DNA from: a virus
Length of the DNA stretch: 35,189 nt
Reading direction: 5' to 3' (one strand)
IMG/VR virus record: IMGVR_UViG_3300042731_006720
Span: 1 to 35,189 of that record
The notes below the pieces were generated by a model that searched no databases, was not told where the DNA came from, and worked only from the letters and a program-made list of their open reading frames with translations. Shown here piece after piece: positions 2,414 to 30,072 of this stretch. The number at the start of each line of letters is the position of its first letter. The first letter of the stretch is position 1. A program made the position numbers and the translations under genes.

Positions 2414-2697
2414 CCCTGCCCCACGACGTCGCCTACTGGGACAAGCCCGAACAGGTCATCTGGGTGGACGTCGGACCCCGCCGCCTCCAGGGCATGGACT
2501 TCATGTGGGTCGGCGAGGACCGCTACGGCATGTGGAACGACCCCCGCAACCGGCACATCTACGACGGCCGGCAGGCGGTCGCCTGGACGTGGGACGGCGC
2601 CACCGAGGAGGAGGCGTGGCCCTGCGAGATTAGGGGCCGGGTCTACGAGGGGTTCATGCTGACCACAGAGCAGGCCGAGGCCGTGGGGATCCTCTGA
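2410..2697 (+). CDS. hypothetical protein, 95 aa, Trp-rich
   Basis: The start is ATG 2410, sharing ATGA with the stop of the LamG-like gene. An in-frame start 12 bases upstream would only add four residues and deepen the overlap. The protein is rich in Trp, Tyr and acidic residues (AYWDKPEQVIWVDVG, RYGMWNDPRNRHIYDG). It has no membrane segment and no Cys pair. It also overlaps the next gene (TGATG 2695-2699), so it is translationally coupled to both neighbours. I do not recognise a family. Its position between two appendage-like genes makes a small structural or assembly protein plausible. Confidence 0.65.
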   Translation: MTLPHDVAYWDKPEQVIWVDVGPRRLQGMDFMWVGEDRYGMWNDPRNRHIYDGRQAVAWTWDGATEEEAWPCEIRGRVYEGFMLTTEQAEAVGIL

Positions 2698-5186
2698 TGC
2701 CGACGCTTTACGCCACGACCACCGCCGTCGGCACGCCGGTCTCCCCCGCAGTCGCCGTCTACGAGCTGTCGGCGACCGCACCGGGAGCCACCACCCTCAC
2801 CGGCGAGAACACGCAGGACACCGCATACGGCACGATCGACAACGCCTGGGAGATCGCATACGACGGGTCATGGCAGGGAGGGTCGGAAACCTGGGACGTC
2901 GACCTCGACGTGACCGCCCTCAGCGGAACCGTCACCTACCGGTTCCGGCTCGCCCGATACAACAGCGGCGGCACCCTCCAGGCGAACAGCGCATGGTCGA
3001 CCGACTACACGACCACCGGCGTCAAGAACCTCAACACCACCTGGGACTCCGGGACCTGGGCGGCCGGCGACGTCCTCGTCATCGAGGTCGACCACTACCG
3101 CAGCGGAGGCCACGGCAACGTTTCGCTCGAGTTCGGCATCGGATCGGCCGACACCCTCGTCAACGCCCCCGACCCGCCCGCCAACAACTACCAGGAGTCG
3201 GAGACCGAGGCCGCCGGCGTCACCGACAGCACCACCTACACGAAAACCCGACCGGAGGCGGCGACCGACGACGCCGGCGTCACCGACAGCGTCGCCACAG
3301 ACCTCACCCTCGAGGCGGAGCTCCGCCTTTCGGGGTTCCGCATCGACGCCACCTACACGGCGGGAGGCCTCAGCGAAACAGCGACGGACGACGCCGGCGT
3401 CACGGACAGCACGAGCCACGCCACCGACGCCGCCCGAGCGGCCACCGACGACGCCGGGGTTACCGACGCGACGACGGCAGCGAAGGCCATCGCCGTTGCG
3501 ATCACCGACAGCGTCGGCGCCGCCGACACGACCGACCGGGCCCTAGCGGCCGCCAGGACCGCCACAGACGCCGCAGGAGCGGCCGACGCCACACAGGCCG
3601 CCAAGACAGCCGCCCAGGCCGTCAGCGACGCCGTAGGGGCCGCAGACGACACGACAGCAGCGACGGCAGCCGCCAGAACGGCCACGGACGCCGTAGGCGC
3701 AGCAGACAGCACCACGAGAGCCCACCAGGCGGCCAGGACGGCCACGGACGACGCCGGGGTGACGGACGCCACCGCCGACACCCTGGGCATCAGCGAAACC
3801 GTCACCGACGCCGCCGGCGTAGCAGACGCCACGGCGAGGGCCCACGCCGCAGCGCGGACGGCGACCGACCCGGCGGGAGCAACGGACGACACCACCGCCG
3901 CCAAGACCATCACCATCGCCATCACGGACGCCGCCGGGGCGACGGACCAGGCGAGCCCGGCGAAGGCGAGCCCGAGGACGGCGACGGACGCCGCCGGAGT
4001 CACCGACAGCACCAGCGAAGTCCTCAGCGCCAGCACAGCGGAGACCGCCACGGACCCGGCCGGCGTCACCGACACCACGAGCAGAGCCCACCAGGCCGCC
4101 CGCACGGCGACGGACGCCGCCGGCGCCACAGACACCGCAACCCCAGCGAAAACCGCCGCAGCGGCCGCCACAGACCCCGCAGGGGCGACGGACACGACGA
4201 CACGAGCCCACCAGGCGGCCAGGACAGCGACCGACCCCGCCGGGACGACCGACACGACGGCAGCAGCGAAGGCCAGCGCCAGGACGGCGACCGACCCGGC
4301 CGGCGTCGCCGACACGACAGCGACGGCGAGGACCATCGCCCGGACCATCACGGACCCCGCAGGCGCCACCGACGCCACGAGCCGGGCGCACACCGCGGAG
4401 CGGACCGCCACCGACGCCGCCGGCATCACCGACTCGACCGCCGAGCAACTCAGCGGAGCCGGCACGGAAACCATCAGCGACGCCGCCGGCGTCCAGGACT
4501 CGACCAGCAGGGCCCACACCGCAGCCCGGACGGCCACCGACCCCGCCGGCGCCACGGACACGGCGACGCCGGCCAAAACCATCCAGGTCGCCATCACCGA
4601 CCAGGCGGGAGCAACGGACACGACGACCCGGACGGCGCCGGCCACCCGCACCATCAGCGACACCGCCGGCATCGCGGACAGCACCGCCGAGCAGCAGAGC
4701 GGAGCCGGCACCGAGGTCATCACCGACCAGACGGGCGCCCAGGACACGACGACCCGCACCCACACCGCCGAACGGGCGGCGACCGACACGGCAGGAGCGA
4801 CCGACGAGGCGACCGCAGCCAAGACCATCACCGTCACCATCACCGACACGGCAGGAGCCGCCGACGACACGACCGCCGCCAAGACCATCACGGCGACGAT
4901 CACCGACGGAGCGGCCGCCACGGACACGACCGGCCGCACCGTCGCCTACCAGCGGACCGCCACCGACACGGCAGGAGCAGCGGACACCGCCAACCGGACC
5001 GTCGACTACACGAGGACCGCCACCGACCAAGCCGACGCCACCGACGCCACCACCTTCCTCCTCCTCGACGAGACCAACCTCCAGCCCATCGGCGTCGGCA
5101 TCCCCCAGCAGGGCGCCGCCGGCAGAACCGTCCACGGCGCTAGATTCCCAACAGGCATCCCCCAGCAAGGGAGGACAACACCATGA
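2697..5186 (+). CDS. repeat-rich fibre-like protein, 829 aa
   Basis: ATG 2697 overlaps the previous stop. Residues 1 to about 160 form a beta-sandwich-like domain (TTLTGENTQDTAYGTIDNAW, then SGTVTYRFRLARYNSGG). Residues 171 to about 786 are roughly 30 head-to-tail copies of a 20-residue repeat, consensus T-A-T-D-x-A-G-A-T-D-T-T-x-x-A-K-T-x-x-R. The tail carries two GIPQQG motifs in GVGIPQQGAAG and PTGIPQQGR. The repeats are almost all Thr, Ala, Asp and Gly with no Cys, as expected of an extended fibrous stalk. The role is inferred: a head or neck fibre with an N-terminal anchor. The reverse strand and another frame are also open here, only because the repeat is GC-rich. The last 46 bases hold the promoter for the next gene. 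Confidence 0.75.
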   Translation: MPTLYATTTAVGTPVSPAVAVYELSATAPGATTLTGENTQDTAYGTIDNAWEIAYDGSWQGGSETWDVDLDVTALSGTVTYRFRLARYNSGGTLQANSAWSTDYTTTGVKNLNTTWDSGTWAAGDVLVIEVDHYRSGGHGNVSLEFGIGSADTLVNAPDPPANNYQESETEAAGVTDSTTYTKTRPEAATDDAGVTDSVATDLTLEAELRLSGFRIDATYTAGGLSETATDDAGVTDSTSHATDAARAATDDAGVTDATTAAKAIAVAITDSVGAADTTDRALAAARTATDAAGAADATQAAKTAAQAVSDAVGAADDTTAATAAARTATDAVGAADSTTRAHQAARTATDDAGVTDATADTLGISETVTDAAGVADATARAHAAARTATDPAGATDDTTAAKTITIAITDAAGATDQASPAKASPRTATDAAGVTDSTSEVLSASTAETATDPAGVTDTTSRAHQAARTATDAAGATDTATPAKTAAAAATDPAGATDTTTRAHQAARTATDPAGTTDTTAAAKASARTATDPAGVADTTATARTIARTITDPAGATDATSRAHTAERTATDAAGITDSTAEQLSGAGTETISDAAGVQDSTSRAHTAARTATDPAGATDTATPAKTIQVAITDQAGATDTTTRTAPATRTISDTAGIADSTAEQQSGAGTEVITDQTGAQDTTTRTHTAERAATDTAGATDEATAAKTITVTITDTAGAADDTTAAKTITATITDGAAATDTTGRTVAYQRTATDTAGAADTANRTVDYTRTATDQADATDATTFLLLDETNLQPIGVGIPQQGAAGRTVHGARFPTGIPQQGRTTP
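3207..5055 (+). repeat. about 30 tandem 60-bp (20-aa) repeats inside the fibre-like gene
   Basis: Copies are in frame, mostly exactly 20 codons, with a few of 22 that end in SGAGTE or SASTAE. The fixed core is T-D-x-A-G-x-T-D. DNA copies have diverged at third positions, so this is an old, maintained protein repeat rather than a fresh duplication. Confidence 0.85.
5141..5152 (+). promoter_or_regulatory. TAnnnT promoter (TAGATT) inside the end of the fibre-like gene
   Basis: TAGATT at 5141-5146 lies 36 bases before ATG 5183, within the last codons of the repeat protein. The leader carries a strong AAGGGAGG (5167-5174). The local sequence is less GC-rich than its surroundings. Candidate only. 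Confidence 0.4.
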
Positions 5187-6709: not shown

Positions 6710-6901
6710 ATGAAGATCAGATGGCTGGGCCGCCCGAGGCGGCTGGCATTCACCACCGGCGAAGGCGCCAACGCCAAGCGCCACACCCACCACGTCAAGG
6801 CCGGCGACGAACTCGACGTCCCCGACGGCGTGACACTCGGCGGCGAGGGCGTAGCCTGGGAGAAGGCTAAGGCCAAGAGCAGCAGCAAGGAGACCAGCTA
6901 G
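6710..6901 (+). CDS. hypothetical small basic protein, 63 aa
   Basis: ATG 6710 follows GAGGAG at 6695-6700, which overlaps the previous stop. The protein is basic at both ends (MKIRWLGRPRRLAF and KAKAKSSSKETS). It has a short middle strand pair (AGDELDVPDGVTLGG) resembling small SH3-like phage proteins of the FluMu type. Its stop TAG abuts the ATG of the major tail protein with no gap. Family uncertain. Position between tail terminator and tube protein is a usual place for a small accessory neck protein. Confidence 0.6.
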   Translation: MKIRWLGRPRRLAFTTGEGANAKRHTHHVKAGDELDVPDGVTLGGEGVAWEKAKAKSSSKETS

Positions 6902-16271: not shown

Positions 16272-16492
16272 TGGCGGAGGCACGAGTCACATCGGTCGTC
16301 GTCGAGGCGATCACCTCGCCCGGCGACCCGGACGCCAGGACAACGAGCCTGGTGGTCGAGGCGATGACACCGGCAGGCGACGCCGACGCCAGGGTCACCA
16401 GCCTCATCGTCGAGGCGATGTACCTCGACCCCGCCTTCCAGCCCCTCGAGACAGCCGGCGCCGGCTACGGCATTCCAGCGGGGATCACATGA
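16271..16492 (+). CDS. small tail-associated repeat protein, 73 aa
   Basis: ATG 16271 overlaps the LamG-like stop (TGATG). The protein consists almost entirely of three copies of a unit A-R-V-T-S-L-V-V-E-A-M followed by TPAGDAD or a close variant, then LDPAFQPLETAGAGYGIPAGIT. Short proteins with ARVTQ/ARVTS-VVVE repeats follow tail tip genes in several actinophage genomes known to me; no function is established. Its stop overlaps the next start. A strand-swap add-on to the tail tip would fit the beta-prone repeats, but that is a guess. Confidence 0.68.
   Translation: MAEARVTSVVVEAITSPGDPDARTTSLVVEAMTPAGDADARVTSLIVEAMYLDPAFQPLETAGAGYGIPAGIT
16277..16420 (+). repeat. three in-frame copies of the ARVTSxVVEA unit
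   Basis: Copies begin near 16280, 16337 and 16391 and have diverged mostly at third positions. The spacer between the first two is four residues longer than a strict repeat, so the array is imperfect. Confidence 0.6.
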
Positions 16493-21274: not shown

Positions 21275-22438
21275 ATGACCGACACAGCAACCACCACCGA
21301 GGACATCATCGACGTGGAGCCCGAGCCCGACCACCTGCCGGCCCCGACAGCCGGCCAGGAGGCGCCAGGAGCGAGCGCAGCCCTCTTCGGGACCACAGAC
21401 CCCGTCGAAGTCCTTACGGCCGCCAGGAGGGCAGCGGAGGCCCTCGTAGAGGTTCTGGAGGAACGGAAGCTTTACAAGCAGATCGGCAGCAAGAAGCACG
21501 TCTACATCGAGGGGTGGCTGATGCTCGCCGGGATGCTCCAAATCAGCACCCCGAACGTTTGGGTGCGGCCGATCAACGGCGACGAGGCCATCGGCTGGGA
21601 GGCCCGCTACGAGGCCCGAGCGGCGGACGGCCGGCTCCTCAGCAGCGCCGAGGGCGAATGCCGCCGGCTCGAGGAGGACCGGAAGCGCAACGGGGAAGTC
21701 GTCCGGAAGTGGGAGCACCGCGCGGAGCACGCCATCAGGAGCATGGCGCAGACCCGAGCCCAGTCGAAAGCCCTCGCCAGCGCCCTCCGCTGGGTCGTGG
21801 AACTCGGCGGCTTCTCCGGGACACCCGCCGAGGAGATGACCGGCGGCGACGAGGAGCCGATGCTGACCTGCCCGGCCTGCGGCAAGAACACCGTCCGAGA
21901 CAACCGGGCCGCCAAGAAGGCCGACCCGGAGGGCAAGGACCGCTGGCCGTCGTTCGGCTGCCGCAACAACGCCTGCACCGGCGGCAACAACGGCCGGTCG
22001 TGGGCGACGTGGGACGACGACTACTACGAGCCGAGGGTCGACCGCCAGAACCAGGCCAAACAGCGGGTGCTGGACATCGTCGCCGACAGGGAGGACGCCT
22101 GGCGGGCGTACTACGAGCCCGACGCCCCCGGATACACCGCCGACGAGGAGCACCTCCTCCACAGCATCCACGAGACCGGCGACCAGCGGCAGATGGCCGG
22201 CTTCCTTTGGAACCGCCTCATCGACGCCTTCGACCGGCACACCGGACAGGCCGACCTGCCCGACGCCGAGCGGGAATACGACTGGGCCATCATCGTGCGA
22301 GCAGCGGACAACGCCCTCGCGCAGGCAGCGGAGGACGAGCCCGACATCATCCTGGAGGACCAGGCCATCGCCATAGCCGAGGAACAGGTCATGGACGAGG
22401 CCGCAGACGCCGACGGCGGCTACTCCGACTACGCCTGA
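21275..22438 (+). CDS. putative single-strand DNA annealing protein with zinc ribbon, 387 aa
   Basis: ATG 21275 follows AGAAGGAGGACGCC. Residues about 58-190 read like a family of phage recombination proteins seen often in actinophages and metagenomes: LYKQIGSKKHVYIEGWLMLA, GWEARYEARAADGRLLSSAE, then the characteristic RSMAQTRAQSKALASALRW and GGFSGTPAEEM. A zinc ribbon follows, Cys199/Cys202 and Cys229/Cys234. The C-terminal third is helical and acidic. Such proteins anneal single strands during recombination-dependent replication. The neighbour is the replication initiator, which fits. An alternative reading as a generic DNA-binding replication factor remains open. Confidence 0.65.
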   Translation: MTDTATTTEDIIDVEPEPDHLPAPTAGQEAPGASAALFGTTDPVEVLTAARRAAEALVEVLEERKLYKQIGSKKHVYIEGWLMLAGMLQISTPNVWVRPINGDEAIGWEARYEARAADGRLLSSAEGECRRLEEDRKRNGEVVRKWEHRAEHAIRSMAQTRAQSKALASALRWVVELGGFSGTPAEEMTGGDEEPMLTCPACGKNTVRDNRAAKKADPEGKDRWPSFGCRNNACTGGNNGRSWATWDDDYYEPRVDRQNQAKQRVLDIVADREDAWRAYYEPDAPGYTADEEHLLHSIHETGDQRQMAGFLWNRLIDAFDRHTGQADLPDAEREYDWAIIVRAADNALAQAAEDEPDIILEDQAIAIAEEQVMDEAADADGGYSDYA

Positions 22439-22575: not shown

Positions 22576-23472
22576 ATGAGCATCAGGCAGATCGGCGAAT
22601 GCTTCTACACGCCGACCCTCGCCCCCAACGAGCGCCTCGTCGCCATCGCCCTCGCGGACTTTGCCGACGACCACGGCCGGGCCTGGCCCAGCCTCAAGAC
22701 CATCGCGGAGAAAACCGGCTACAGCCGCCGGCAGACCCAGCGGATCGTCCACCAGCTCCAGGAGAAGGGCTACGTCGAGATCATCATCGAGGCGAACTGG
22801 AACAGGACGCCGCTCTACCAACTCCACCCCGAGAACCTCAAGACCAGGGAGGCGCCGACGGAGGCGCCGCTGCCCTTCCACGAGGACGCCCAAGAAGCCC
22901 TCGACAGACGGGGTGACAAGATGACACCCCCGGACACCGGCGACACCCCAGGGGATGACACCGGCGACCAGGAGGGGATGACACCCACGACCAGAGGGGA
23001 TGACACCGGCGACACCCAAACCGTCATAGAACCGTCAGATGAACCACCACCTGAACCGTCAGTCGCGCCGCTCCCAGCAATCGTCGAAGGCGAGGAGCAC
23101 ATCGAACGGTTCACCGACGCCACCGTTTCACGTGAAACACCACGACCCCGCAACCCCGGCTGGGACGCCCTCACAGACGTCTTCGGCTACGACCCCGAGG
23201 AGACCGGCGAACGAACCCTGTGGGGCCGCCTCGCAGCCCGAGCGAACGCCGAGCCCGACCCCGACGCCGCCGTCAAGGAACGAGCCCGCCGCATCATCGC
23301 CCAATGGGGCGTCGGGAAACTCACCCCCGCCAGCCTCAACAAATGGTGGCAACGCTTCGGCACGCCCCTCGGCGCCGCCACCGACCAAGATGCGGAAGCA
23401 ATGAGAGAAGCCCACGAGCGGGAACAACGACGCCAGCGGATGGGCGCAGCACAACTAGAGGAGGGGACATGA
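22576..23472 (+). CDS. replication initiator with winged helix; carries origin-like repeats, 298 aa
   Basis: ATG 22576 follows AGAGAAGGGATCCCC; an upstream GTG at 22516 has no ribosome site and lies inside the leader hairpin. Residues about 18-82 are a winged helix (ERLVAIALADFADDHGRAWP, TIAEKTGYSRRQTQRIVHQL, EKGYVEI), as in HTH_36 phage replication proteins. A Pro/Asp/Thr-rich linker (about 112-180) contains the iteron DNA. A helical C-terminal part (WGRLAARANAEPDPDAAVKE, then GVGKLTPASLNKWWQRFG) would bind a loader or helicase. The plan, with initiator gene containing its own origin, recalls lambda O. The next gene may be the loader. The family call is good; origin function is inferred. Confidence 0.75.
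   Translation: MSIRQIGECFYTPTLAPNERLVAIALADFADDHGRAWPSLKTIAEKTGYSRRQTQRIVHQLQEKGYVEIIIEANWNRTPLYQLHPENLKTREAPTEAPLPFHEDAQEALDRRGDKMTPPDTGDTPGDDTGDQEGMTPTTRGDDTGDTQTVIEPSDEPPPEPSVAPLPAIVEGEEHIERFTDATVSRETPRPRNPGWDALTDVFGYDPEETGERTLWGRLAARANAEPDPDAAVKERARRIIAQWGVGKLTPASLNKWWQRFGTPLGAATDQDAEAMREAHEREQRRQRMGAAQLEEGT
22951..23017 (+). repeat. iteron array: three abutting 22-23 bp direct repeats, candidate replication origin
   Basis: Copies begin at 22951, 22974 and 22996, each starting GGGGATGACACC and continuing with GGCGAC or CACGAC. Two degenerate copies precede them (GGGGTGACA at 22910-22918 and ATGACACC at 22921-22928), and GACACCGGCGAC recurs at 22933-22944. Spacing of 23 then 22 bases breaks the reading frame, so copies encode different peptides (GDDTGDQE versus GMTPTTR). 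That points to selection on DNA. Confidence 0.72.
23020..23061 (+). repeat. three ACCGTCA boxes beside the iterons
   Basis: ACCGTCA occurs at 23020-23026, 23031-23037 and 23055-23061, in a segment that is A/T-richer than the rest of the gene. It may be the easily melted part of the origin or a second set of binding boxes. Short boxes, so chance cannot be excluded. Confidence 0.45.
23125..23138 (+). promoter_or_regulatory. parS site (perfect 14-bp bacterial ParB-binding core)
   Basis: GTTTCACGTGAAAC is the palindromic core of the chromosomal parS bound by ParB/Spo0J in most bacteria. With its flanks it reads CGTTTCACGTGAAACA, 15 of 16 bases of the classical consensus. It encodes Val184-Ser-Arg-Glu-Thr188 with codons GTT, TCA and CGT, which the phage otherwise avoids. 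That suggests the DNA is what is kept. Confidence 0.75.
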
Positions 23473-23948
23473 GCCCGAACGAACTCATCAAAGTCATCGA
23501 ATACTGCGAGGACCGCTGGCCCGGAACCCGCAACTACCGCGCCGTCGAGAAAGCCGCCTGGGACTTCGCCGCCATCCCCGCCGAGGCCGTCCACCAGGCA
23601 GCACAAAACCACTTCGCCGCCGGCGAACGCAGCGCCCCAACCCTCAGCCAACTCCGAGCCGAGGGCGCCCGCATCGCCGCACAGCGAGGCCTCACCGACC
23701 CGCAGGGCACCGACTGCGACGTCCGGAAACACCACGGCGCCTGGGCCCTCGACTGGGCTCGAGACAGCCACGGCCGCACCAAGACCGACGACGCCGGCCA
23801 CCCCCTCCGGGAGGCCATGTGCGTCGACTGCGGCACGACGGTGATCCGACCCGCCAACCAGCTCCTCACCGTCGGCGAACACGAGGCGCAGCGGGAGGCC
23901 GGCCAAGAACCGCAGGGCCCGACCCTCACCGACATCGTCGCACCGTGA
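23469..23948 (+). CDS. possible helicase loader with zinc motif, 159 aa
   Basis: ATG 23469 shares ATGA with the initiator stop and has GAGGGG upstream. The N-terminal 72 residues (ELIKVIEYCEDRWPGTRNYR, AAWDFAAIPAEAVHQAAQNH, RSAPTLSQLRAEG) resemble the helical domain of phage helicase loaders such as the G40P loader. These share W-x-x-x-L/F, a helix, and a Pro-x-x-x-x-L/I segment. A second part has Cys83, His88/89 and MCVDCGTTV (Cys118, Cys121), a likely zinc site. Position directly after the initiator supports a loader role. No Walker motif is present, so it is not a DnaC-type ATPase. The identification is tentative. Confidence 0.5.
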   Translation: MSPNELIKVIEYCEDRWPGTRNYRAVEKAAWDFAAIPAEAVHQAAQNHFAAGERSAPTLSQLRAEGARIAAQRGLTDPQGTDCDVRKHHGAWALDWARDSHGRTKTDDAGHPLREAMCVDCGTTVIRPANQLLTVGEHEAQREAGQEPQGPTLTDIVAP

Positions 23949-24289
23949 CCACCCTTCCCACTCCCGACCAAGTACGAGAAGCGCTGTCATGGCAGGACTG
24001 GCACGCTGCGTTTCACATGAGTGGGCCCGATTCCGAGACAATGCTCAACATGACTCGCATCATCGCTCAGGCGTATGTCGATGGCTCCCTGGTCGCCATC
24101 CCCTGCGGAGGAAGCGGATCACTTGGGAGCGTCACCATCTCAGACGTGGACGTATTTGTGGCTGAGTTCGCTAGCCGATTATTCGACAGCAAGCGTGAAG
24201 ACCCAGACCGGGTGCTGGTGGGGAGAGCCACAACCGAACTGTTGAACATGCTCGACGACCTGGCCGCTCCCAGAGAGGAGACGAAGTGA
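23945..24289 (+). CDS. hypothetical protein of unlike composition, 114 aa
   Basis: GTG 23945 shares GTGA with the previous stop. The codons differ sharply from all neighbours: TTG, TTA, GCT, CGT, TTT, GTA, TCA and AGT are frequent, and GC content is visibly lower (by eye in the high fifties per cent against the high sixties). That indicates recent transfer from another source. The protein has two helical regions (VREALSWQDWHAAFHMSG, then TTELLNMLDDLAAP) around a Gly-rich turn (PCGGSGSLGSVTISDVDVFV). No motif was recognised. It keeps four-base overlaps on both sides, so it is built into the operon. GTTTCACATGA at 24010 resembles a parS half. Confidence 0.6.
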   Translation: MTTLPTPDQVREALSWQDWHAAFHMSGPDSETMLNMTRIIAQAYVDGSLVAIPCGGSGSLGSVTISDVDVFVAEFASRLFDSKREDPDRVLVGRATTELLNMLDDLAAPREETK

Positions 24290-24717: not shown

Positions 24718-24965
24718 CCACCGAACCGACAGAACGAGAGTGGCTAGAGGGCACCCACCCCGACGCCGAGGACGACGCCCGACCCCACCGAATCCCACCC
24801 TTCCCCGAACCCACCCCCGCCGAGGAGGAGGACCTCGCCAAGGCGAAAGCCCGAGCCCTCGCCGCCCTCCAAGAACTCACGGACCGCCTCAACGCCGCCC
24901 TAAAAGCCCAGGACGACACCACCCGAGTCACCATCACCATCCACACCAACGAGGAGCGCCTGTGA
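24714..24965 (+). CDS. hypothetical acidic/helical protein, 83 aa
   Basis: ATG 24714 shares ATGA. The N-terminal half is acidic and Pro-rich (EWLEGTHPDAEDDARPHRIP). The second half is a long helix (EEEDLAKAKARALAALQELT, then DRLNAALKAQD) and a final strand (TRVTITIHTNEERL). No motif is recognised. It couples the winged-helix gene to the methyltransferase gene, whose GTG overlaps its stop. Confidence 0.6.
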   Translation: MTTEPTEREWLEGTHPDAEDDARPHRIPPFPEPTPAEEEDLAKAKARALAALQELTDRLNAALKAQDDTTRVTITIHTNEERL

Positions 24966-26470
24966 GCCCGACCCCGATCGTCAGCACCCGCGAGGCCCCC
25001 ATCAAAGACCTCGCACCCCACCCGCAGAACCCGAACGAGCGGGAGACCGTCGAGGACATCCGCCGGAGCCTCCGCCGCTTCGGCCTCTACCGGACCATCG
25101 CCATCCAACAGTCCACCAACCACGTCATCGTCGGCAACCACACCTTCCTCGCCGCCCGCGAGGAGGGCTGGAAAACGATCAAGGTCAACGTCCTCGACGT
25201 CGACGACGAAACCGCCCTGGCGATCATGCTCGCCGACAACCGCCTCGCCGAGGCAGGAGCCCGAGACCCCGAAACCCTCGCCGACCTCCTCAAGCGCCTC
25301 GACGCCACCGACCTCGGCCTCGAGGGCACCGGCTACACCACCGCCGACCTAGCGGAACTCCTGGGCCCCGACCGGGCCGCCACCGGCACACCCCTCACCG
25401 AAAACTTCCTCGTCCCGCCCTTCACCGTCCTCGACAGCCGCCAGGGCTACTGGAAAGCCCGGAAACAGGAGTGGATGGCCCTCGGCATCCGCAGCGAACT
25501 CGGCCGGGACCAAAACCTCGCCATGGACAGCCTCAGCGGCCGGGTGCCCGACTACTACGACCAGAAGCGCACCATCGAGGCGTACCTGGGCCGCACCATC
25601 CCCAACGCCGAGTTCGAGGAGAAGTGGCTCCGCATGCCCGAGAACGAGAGCACCATGGGCGCCAGCGGCACCAGCATCTTCGACCCGGTCCTCTGCGAGG
25701 TCGCCTACCGCTGGTTCGCCCCCGAGGAGGGCCACGTCCTCGACCCCTTCGCCGGCGGCAGCGTCCGAGGCATCACCGCCGCCCTCACCGGCCGCACCTA
25801 CACCGGCATCGACCTCGCCGGCGACCAGCTCGCCGCCAACCGGGCGCAATGGCAGGCCATCGACGCCGCCCTCATCGACGCCGGCCCCCAACCCGAATGG
25901 ATACACGGCGCCAGCCCCGACGCCATCCCCGACGAGCCCGCAGACCTCATCTTCACCTGCCCGCCGTACTTCGACCTGGAGCGGTACAGCGACCACGAGG
26001 ACGACCTGAGCAACATGACCTGGGCCCAATTCAAGAAGGCCCACGACGCCGTCATCGAGGCCAGCCTCGCCCGCCTCCGGGAGAACCGCTTCGCCGTCTG
26101 GGTCATCGCCGACGTACGCGACAAGAAGGGCAACTACCGAGGCCTCGTCGCCGAAACCATCCGCAGCTTCCAACGCCACGGAGCCCACCTCTACAACGAC
26201 GCCGTCCTCGTCACCCCCACCGGCAGCCTCGCCGTCACCGCCGGCCGCCAATTCCGAGCCAGCCGGAAGCAAGGGAAACAACACCAGAACGTCCTCGTCT
26301 TCGGCAAACCCGGCGACGACCCCCTCGGCCAGGCCGTCCACGAGGCATTCACCGAGGCCTGGACCCTCGGCCGCAACCACCAGAACGTCCTCACCTTCGT
26401 CAAAGGCGACGGCAAGAAGGCCACCGGCGACCTCGGCGACGTCGCAGTCGATACCCTGCCAGAGCTATGA
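24962..26470 (+). CDS. ParB-like domain DNA methyltransferase, 502 aa
   Basis: GTG 24962 shares GTGA with the previous stop. Residues about 10-110 are a ParB/sulfiredoxin-type domain: DLAPHPQNPNERETVEDIRR, GLYRTIAIQQ, VIVGNHTFLAAREEGW. The C-terminal part is an amino-methyltransferase: motif I at Asp261 (VLDPFAGGSVRG) and motif IV at 332-336 (TCPPY, with Cys where Ser is usual). Between lies a probable target-recognition segment. The fusion is known in phages and would modify adenine or cytosine in phage DNA, guarding against restriction. It lacks the helix-turn-helix of segregation ParB, so parS binding is not expected from this protein. Confidence 0.78.
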   Translation: MSPTPIVSTREAPIKDLAPHPQNPNERETVEDIRRSLRRFGLYRTIAIQQSTNHVIVGNHTFLAAREEGWKTIKVNVLDVDDETALAIMLADNRLAEAGARDPETLADLLKRLDATDLGLEGTGYTTADLAELLGPDRAATGTPLTENFLVPPFTVLDSRQGYWKARKQEWMALGIRSELGRDQNLAMDSLSGRVPDYYDQKRTIEAYLGRTIPNAEFEEKWLRMPENESTMGASGTSIFDPVLCEVAYRWFAPEEGHVLDPFAGGSVRGITAALTGRTYTGIDLAGDQLAANRAQWQAIDAALIDAGPQPEWIHGASPDAIPDEPADLIFTCPPYFDLERYSDHEDDLSNMTWAQFKKAHDAVIEASLARLRENRFAVWVIADVRDKKGNYRGLVAETIRSFQRHGAHLYNDAVLVTPTGSLAVTAGRQFRASRKQGKQHQNVLVFGKPGDDPLGQAVHEAFTEAWTLGRNHQNVLTFVKGDGKKATGDLGDVAVDTLPEL

Positions 26471-28271: not shown

Positions 28272-28474
28272 TCCGCCGGGCCCGCATCCACACCCGCCGC
28301 CTCTGGCGCCGCCTGTGGGCCCGCTACGACGTCGAACGATGCGCCCACGCCAACTACGCCGGGAGGACGTGGCCGATGTTCTGCGACCGTCCTAAAGGCC
28401 ACGGCGGACTCCACAAGGACGCCGGCAGCGGCGTCATGTGGGGCCCGAACGCCGGCATCGAACGCAAGGACTGA
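28268..28474 (+). CDS. small basic Cys/His protein, 68 aa
   Basis: GTG 28268 shares GTGA with the nuclease stop. The first 20 residues are strongly basic (VIRRARIHTRRLWRRLWARY). Cys25, Cys39, His45 and His49 (FCDRPKGHGGLHKDA) are spaced like a zinc site. The Cys-Asp...Gly-His-Gly-Gly-His pattern is familiar from short actinophage proteins of unknown role. Nothing more can be said; nucleic-acid binding is plausible from charge. Confidence 0.62.
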   Translation: MIRRARIHTRRLWRRLWARYDVERCAHANYAGRTWPMFCDRPKGHGGLHKDAGSGVMWGPNAGIERKD

Positions 28475-28479
28475 ACCCG

Positions 28480-30072
28480 ATGCCGGCCAGCCCGGAGCAG
28501 GTCGCCCGCCTAGAGGCAGACCCCCTCACCTGGAAACTCGCCCTCTTCGAGAAATACCAGACCGCCCACGACGGCGCCATCATCGCCGACGCCCCGCACC
28601 ACCGCCGCTTCTGGACCTGGCTGTGGGACATTCAACCGGGACGCCGGCCCCGCCCCTTCGTCGGCATCTGGCCACGAGGAGGAGCCAAGAGCACCAACGC
28701 CGAAATGGGCGCCATCGCCCTCGGCGCCCCACGCCAGCAGGAGGACGGCAGCCGCCGGCCCACCCGCAACTACGCCTGGTACGTCAGCGAGGTCCAGGAC
28801 CAGGCCGACGACCACGTCGAGACCGTCGGCGCCATGCTCGAGAGCAGCGAACTCGCCACCTTCTACCCCGACCTCGCCCGCCGAGCCGTCAACAAGTACG
28901 GCAGCAGCCGAGGCTGGCGCCGCAACCGCCTGAGGACCGCAGCCGGCTTCACCGTCGACGCCGTAGGCCTCGACACCGCCGCCCGAGGCATCAAGATCGA
29001 GGAGGCCCGCCCCGGCCTCATCGTCTTCGACGACATCGACGGCCGCCACGACAGCCAGGCGACCACCGACAAGAAGCGGGAGACCATCACCCAAACCCTC
29101 ATCCCCGCCGGCAGCGCAGACCGGGCCCTCATGTTCATCCAGAACCTCGTCCACCCCACCAGCATCTTCGCCCAGCTCGCCGACGGCAGCGCCGGCTTCC
29201 TCACCCAGGCGCACATCAGCGGCCCCGTCCCCGCCGTCGAGGACCTCACCTACGCCGCCAAGCGGGACCGCATCGTCATCACAAGCGGCACCCCGACCTG
29301 GGCCGGCCAGGACCTCGACACCTGCCAGGCGGACATCGACGAGATCGGCATCACCGCATTCCTCCAAGAAGCCCAACACGAAGTCGAGGCGCCACCCGGC
29401 GGCATGTTCGACCACCTCGACCTCGCCGCCCTCCGCATCGACTGGGACGACGTGCCGCCCCTCGACCGGGTCGTCGTTTGGGTGGACCCGGCCGTCACCA
29501 AGAAAGACCAGAGCGACGCCCACGCCATCCAGGCCGACGGCATCGCCGGCGACACGATCTACCGCCTCCACTCGTGGGAGCAGAGGAGCACACCCCTCGC
29601 CGCCATCAAGCGGGCCATCCAGACCGCCGCCCGCTACGGCGCCACCTACGTCGGCGTCGAAACCGACCAGGGAGGAGACACCTGGCGCAGCACCTTCCGC
29701 GAGGCCCGCACCGCCGCCGCCGAGGAGGCCACCGGCGACGACCGGGACCGCATCCGCCGCATCCGCTTCGCCGAGGCCAAGGCCGGCCAGGGCCAAGACC
29801 CCAAGACCCACCGAGCGAGCATCATGCTCGCCGACTACGAGAAGCCCGGCCGCCGCATCCGCCACGTCACCGGCACCCACCTCGTCCTCGAGAAAGCCCT
29901 CGCCCGCTTCCCCAAAACCCACCCCCTCGACCTGGTGGACGCCGGCTACTGGGCGTGGAACGACCTGAGGAACAAGCCCGAGATCGCCGGCTACGCCGCC
30001 GACATAGAAGCCGACCTCGCCGACGAGCCCAGCGACCCCTACGCCGCCGACCGGGTCTCCCGCATCTGGTAG
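28480..30072 (+). CDS. terL: terminase large subunit, 530 aa
   Basis: ATG 28480 is chosen because AAGGA lies nine bases upstream; an in-frame GTG at 28438 would overlap the previous gene by 37 bases. The ATPase domain has Walker A PRGGAKST (residues 65-72) and Walker B LIVFDD with Asp184/Asp185. The C-terminal nuclease domain has VVWVDPAV (Asp336), GVETDQGG (Glu394, Asp396) and DLVDAGYW (Asp487). Length and order are normal for TerL, the motor that pumps DNA into the procapsid and cuts it. Fold-specific hints about pac or cos packaging cannot be drawn here. Behind its stop comes the first promoter cassette. Confidence 0.92.
   Translation: MPASPEQVARLEADPLTWKLALFEKYQTAHDGAIIADAPHHRRFWTWLWDIQPGRRPRPFVGIWPRGGAKSTNAEMGAIALGAPRQQEDGSRRPTRNYAWYVSEVQDQADDHVETVGAMLESSELATFYPDLARRAVNKYGSSRGWRRNRLRTAAGFTVDAVGLDTAARGIKIEEARPGLIVFDDIDGRHDSQATTDKKRETITQTLIPAGSADRALMFIQNLVHPTSIFAQLADGSAGFLTQAHISGPVPAVEDLTYAAKRDRIVITSGTPTWAGQDLDTCQADIDEIGITAFLQEAQHEVEAPPGGMFDHLDLAALRIDWDDVPPLDRVVVWVDPAVTKKDQSDAHAIQADGIAGDTIYRLHSWEQRSTPLAAIKRAIQTAARYGATYVGVETDQGGDTWRSTFREARTAAAEEATGDDRDRIRRIRFAEAKAGQGQDPKTHRASIMLADYEKPGRRIRHVTGTHLVLEKALARFPKTHPLDLVDAGYWAWNDLRNKPEIAGYAADIEADLADEPSDPYAADRVSRIW

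Follow-up and report, generated by a model that had tools for sequence, protein, structure and literature searches.

The region from 22910 to 23061 is very probably the replication origin of this phage, situated inside the gene of its own initiator protein in the manner of lambda O; it is put forward as a candidate on grounds of anatomy and comparison. The window, i.e. the whole stretch of DNA analyzed here, comprises 35,189 bases (69% G+C) and is a virus record from IMG/VR; its recognisable genes lie on the plus strand. The sequence-only reading had proposed a lambda-O-like internal origin, and this proposal finds support in the O-like family of the encoded protein, its winged helix, the 22-23-bp iterons, the A/T-richer boxes, and a layout shared with lambda and with 16 out of 16 phages compared. 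The layout is known and common to a very wide set of phages, to which the window probably adds one more member. The interest of the case lies mainly in two points, the breadth of the iteron word and the presence of parS sites. In addition, a probable origin of an uncultivated phage is located here from sequence alone.

The initiator gene (22576..23472, plus strand) encodes a protein of 298 amino acids that belongs to PHROG "replication initiation O-like". Its matches include the PHROG families 391 (E 1e-20), 270, 1032, 8540 and others, named either "replication initiation O-like" or "replication initiation protein". In Pfam, residues 15-67 match HTH_36 (PF13730, E 9e-16); the protein has no match to PF04492 (Phage_rep_O, lambda O proper), nor to PF06970 (RepA_N) at E 0.1. 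An N-terminal winged helix had been predicted in the earlier reading, and residues 1-95 (22576..22860, plus strand) are indeed modelled as such by AlphaFold with a mean pLDDT of 90, comprising helices at residues 3-10, 17-28, 40-47 and 51-63 and strands at 67-71 and 80-83. The domain is presumably the iteron-binding part. Foldseek places it next to winged-helix regulators and to 4pql (N-terminal domain of a DNA-binding protein), 5kbj (a Rep-DNA complex) and 4pt7 ("structure of initiator"), the last three of which we take to be RepA_N-type proteins; a domain-profile sequence search of solved structures yields only weak winged-helix matches. The start of the next gene (23469..23948, plus strand) overlaps the initiator gene. 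By its position, this gene may fill the slot of a helicase loader, and in relatives a P-like loader or DnaB gene is found directly downstream of such initiator genes. Neither this gene nor its counterpart in L001, a locus whose initiator protein is 69% identical, matches a PHROG or Pfam family.

The iteron array is located on the plus strand in the linker directly behind the winged-helix domain. The window contains exactly three copies of the word GGGGATGACACC, at 22951, 22974 and 22996, and the three abutting repeats of 23, 22 and 22 bp described previously are confirmed by the sequence: GGGGATGACACCGGCGACCAGGA (iteron 2, 22951..22973), GGGGATGACACCCACGACCAGA (iteron 3, 22974..22995) and GGGGATGACACCGGCGACACCC (iteron 4, 22996..23017). 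GATGACACC is found additionally at 22920 and, beyond the repeat region, at 16363. Of the two upstream copies that had been called degenerate, only the weak unit at 22930..22950, which lacks the GGGGNTGA part, deserves the term; the unit at 22910..22931 (iteron 1, GGGGTGACAAGATGACACCCCC) is a good member of the family, as a comparison with GGGGTGACATCCACGACACCCC from locus L041 illustrates, and its equivalent in L001 is GGGGTGACAAAATGACACCCCA.

The array is followed by an A/T-richer patch (23014..23061, plus strand), which from its sequence is presumed to be the DNA unwinding element. The three ACCGTCA boxes that had been noticed in this patch are present at 23020, 23031 and 23055, the second and third being in frame with each other at a distance of 24 bp. 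The G+C content of the patch is 52%, compared with 66% for the gene and 69% for the genome. The patch falls among the most easily melted 0.15% of the record's 40-bp windows, although it is not where the record would melt first (it ranks about 11th among patches of 40 bp). ACCGTCA is counted 13 times in the whole window, so a single box is not rare; three boxes within 42 bp are nonetheless notable. The box sequence CCGTCATAGAACCGTCA is common to the window and L001, the form ACCATCATTGAACC is found in the more distant locus L473, and tandem 11-12-mers adjoin the array in other loci of the family. At L050, L060 and L103, tandem A/T-rich 11-13-mers similar to AAGAGTAAATAAC take the place of the ACCGTCA boxes behind the iterons.

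Synonymous shuffling, which permutes the codons within the gene and keeps both the protein and its codons, never reproduces the 10-mer repeat content of the initiator gene (0 of 5000 shuffles; 2 of 5000 for the relative L001). Furthermore, internal identity of at least 18/20 at lags of 15-50 is seen in the initiator gene, at 22, 23 and 45, and in 0 of 12 other window genes tested. The sequence-only reading had held that the copies encode different peptides, and had argued from the reading frame for selection at the level of DNA. Within the gene, this argument is weaker, because the first and the third of the three copies lie 45 bp apart in the same frame and both encode GDDTGD, and because a 12-mer in three copies arises in 158 of 5000 synonymous shuffles (3%); the second copy does lie in another frame and encodes GMTP. 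Family-wide the argument is strong, given the 22/23-bp spacing in 86 loci. Third-position conservation between the window and L001 shows no excess in the repeats (25/32 vs 115/167 identical codons, P = 0.40), a comparison of two sequences that has little power. The cumulative GC skew, which had been expected to turn at the site, falls throughout the window; the missing turn lends no support to an origin, yet it does not seriously harm the interpretation in view of the one-strand genes.

For the breadth of the iteron word, IMG/VR was scanned on both strands, blind to proteins, for GGGTGACACC occurring twice, 6-20 bases apart. The scan returns 116 stretches, compared with 12 for the reversed word used as a control. 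An HMM built from the winged helix of the window places 86 of the 116 inside open reading frames with an N-terminal domain of the window type, as against 4-5 of about 5,500 other reading frames in these loci. The spacing in the 86 loci is 22 bp in 29 cases and 23 bp in 52, and its remainders modulo 3 (0: 23, 1: 36, 2: 58) give no sign that multiples of three are favored; among the other stretches, 35 of the 40 spacings are divisible by three, most of them 18 or 27 bp, as expected for protein repeats. In-frame protein repeats as a cause are ruled out by the spacing across the family loci. Among 75 distinct genes, the motif is oriented in the sense direction in 53 and antisense in 22, and the N-terminal domains of these loci form 42 clusters at 60% identity. 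Of 117 paired-word stretches in the genome collection, 10 lie in such initiator-type reading frames; they come from Ensifer, Rhizobium, Brevundimonas, Afifella, Modicisalibacter, Demequina, other actinobacteria, a Clostridia MAG and a Planctomycetaceae MAG. This covers alpha- and gammaproteobacteria as well as actinobacteria, besides the MAGs from Clostridia and Planctomycetes. The window's own variant of the iteron is rare, since the exact pair of GGGGATGACACC has no match in IMG/VR. An O-like HTH frame is also present in the loci of three of the 12 reversed-word stretches, which would fit origins with varying iteron words. Taken together, GGGTGACACC repeated at 22-23 bp is a marker of probable origins whose initiators differ greatly and come from several bacterial phyla, and the origins of many unstudied phages could be called by a simple scan for it.

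The family-wide alignment is too divergent for a protein-based scan of IMG/VR, and named phages were used instead: 16 of them were picked by tblastn with initiator domains, blind to repeats, including Shigella SfIV, Pseudomonas phi2, Vibrio D67 and K67, Klebsiella RothC, Bifidobacterium PMBT6, and Arthrobacter KellEzio and RedFox. Internal repeats of the linker (at least 15/20 identical, lags 15-50) are present in 16/16 of these phages and in 4/31 flanking segments, with lags of typically 17, or of 21-24 and 45. The words themselves vary (GTGCA..TTCAC, CTATGCCGCCAAAAAGCA, CACCCCCGCAG, GGGTGTCAGAGTGACG), and PMBT6 has the word of the window. Hence, the layout is general, and the word of the window is one type among others that is widespread. 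It can now be tested why a single iteron word has been retained in initiators that diverge strongly, although different words are in use among other O-like phages. It had also been reasoned that free variation of the repeats in relatives that keep the gene would speak against an origin; what we find is that position, spacing and adjoining boxes persist in L001 and L473, and that the word drifts in concert. L001 keeps the array with the same spacing of 23 and 22, and a concerted A-to-G change distinguishes GGGGATGACAC in all three window copies from GGGGGTGACAC in all three copies of L001. In L473 (record G005; protein 31% identical), the position is kept, and units of about 21-23 bp with a TGACACC half-site are followed by the boxes.

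An alternative interpretation is that the repeats are operators, and not an origin, and that the protein uses them to repress or adjust the expression of its own gene or operon. A winged-helix protein with sites in its own gene could autoregulate, and many of its solved structural neighbors are repressors. However, the sites are downstream of the gene's start, 330-440 bp into it, as they are in relatives; the protein falls in initiator families, not in repressor families; and several relatives have an A/T-richer patch with boxes next to the array. The same layout is found, moreover, in lambda O, SPP1 gp38 and pSK41 Rep, whose origins are known to lie there. We therefore regard operators in place of an origin as improbable; the two roles may well coexist.

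It is more improbable still that the array reflects a low-complexity Gly-Asp-Thr-Pro linker grown by slippage, whose DNA repeats would have no function. The peptide common to copies 1 and 3, the three 12-mer copies in 3% of synonymous shuffles and the lack of third-position excess relative to L001 are all compatible with this scenario. It accounts poorly for a 22/23-bp spacing that is indifferent to the frame in 86 loci, in contrast to the in-frame repeats seen elsewhere, and for the same DNA word recurring across 42 domain clusters (60% identity), on either gene strand and always at the same place, where other O-like phages carry different iteron words. A packaging or recombination site of pac-like or cos-like type, unrelated to initiation, is the least credible reading and hardly to be expected here. 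Some phages are generally known to hide pac sites in genes, but such sites are in or near terminase genes; the terminase of the window (28438-30072) is 5 kb away, and the repeats track initiator genes.

Under the preferred interpretation as an origin, the gene product would use its N-terminal winged helix to bind the four or five iterons of 22-23 bp. As these are two helical turns apart, the bound molecules could stack on one face of the DNA; the complex would then strain the downstream A/T-richer ACCGTCA patch, which would open, and the rest of the protein would recruit a helicase loader or the DnaB helicase. Homology and anatomy make binding, opening and recruitment the most likely course of events. 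The peptide of the linker is free to vary; hence the DNA can carry iterons at this place, and the repeat units ignore the reading frame.

A second, unexpected element lies in the same gene. parS is the bacterial centromere site for chromosome segregation, with the 16-bp consensus TGTTTCACGTGAAACA. A parS core, GTTTCACGTGAAAC, is located at 23125..23138, 63 bases behind the last box and outside the origin proper. The core matches at 14/14 positions, and the 16-mer at 23124-23139 matches TGTTTCACGTGAAACA at 15/16. Even when up to 2 mismatches are allowed, none of 100 shuffles yields such a core, and 2e-5 are expected per window by base composition. The record of L001 (G001) contains two exact parS cores, at 24023 and 31351 (L376, L377), elsewhere than that of the window. 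Among 43 further terminase-related records, the core is found in 2 and in none of the other 41: G004 (terminase 62% identical) has two sites 162 bp apart, at 22139 and 22301 (L459, L460), and G005 (terminase 53% identical) has one at 6752 (L458). In the four phages, the sites sit in different genes and at unrelated places. A parS site within an initiator-type gene is not a rule, because 0 of 120 parS-bearing IMG/VR stretches show it. In the viral collection, contigs L145 and L190 have five closely spaced exact parS sites each and are possibly plasmid or chromosome fragments near oriC. The window also encodes, at 2697-5186, an 829-residue protein of ATD-AG-TD type repeats with extreme A/T skew, and the parS sites of G001 and G004 are located in repeat-rich proteins that resemble it.

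A ParB HTH domain, an AAA_31 (ParA-type) ATPase, a tyrosine integrase and a resolvase were not detected in the four phage records, which are possibly incomplete and in which one profile may have missed a ParA. A natural guess from these sequences is that the ParB of the host would act at the phage parS sites. We can imagine, while leaning somewhat towards the opposite view, that the window gene combines initiator, origin and a dock for the host's segregation clamp, and that the lineage of the window, G001, G004 and G005 gained host-type parS and uses the host ParABS system to position or inherit its DNA, in the window directly next to the origin. A literature search found no papers on phages with host-type parS; the sites raise the testable question of whether some phages borrow the parS of their hosts. 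The gene at 24740-26470 encodes a ParB N-terminal (ParB-like) domain fused to an N6/N4 DNA methylase. Fusions of a ParB-like domain with a DNA methylase are common in phages (PMC12704722).

Among the systems available for comparison, the HTH protein of Bifidobacterium phage PMBT6 (AXF39301.1) shares the iteron word (GGGGTGACACCCATGTCACC), repeats 22/23/45 bp apart and O-like PHROGs with the window, but the protein is distant overall. To our knowledge, no experiment has been performed on it. In the RepA_N plasmid pSK41, the origin is central in rep and is bound by the N-terminal domain, and the linker encoded there can be dispensed with at the protein level (PMC5703833); the central in-gene origin resembles that of the window, whereas pSK41 is a plasmid, not a phage, and a RepA_N match is missing in the window protein. 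SPP1 gp38 binds direct repeats of oriL within gene 38, where an A/T-rich unwinding element is also found (PMC6316719). By this description, the layout is that of the window, with repeats and an A/T-rich element inside the initiator gene; SPP1 differs in having a second origin, oriR. Ori-lambda, finally, consists of iterons and an A/T-rich tract in the middle of the O gene (PMC7466680). The iteron sequences are unrelated (ATCCCTCAAAACGAGGGA in lambda, GGGGATGACACC in the window), the Pfam families differ (PF04492 for lambda O, PF13730 for the window protein), and the unwinding patch of the window, with 52% G+C in a genome of 69%, is no more than moderately A/T-rich, unlike that of lambda. The two proteins nevertheless share matches to PHROG 391, 678 and 345. 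In lambda, as in the Stx phages, the iterons are mid-gene: they occupy nt 348-432 of O, compared with nt 334-441 in the window. The lambda iterons start at nt 348, 368, 392 and 415 (spacing 20/24/23) and end at 432, where the A/T-rich tract follows, just as the patch follows in the window, reaching nt 485.
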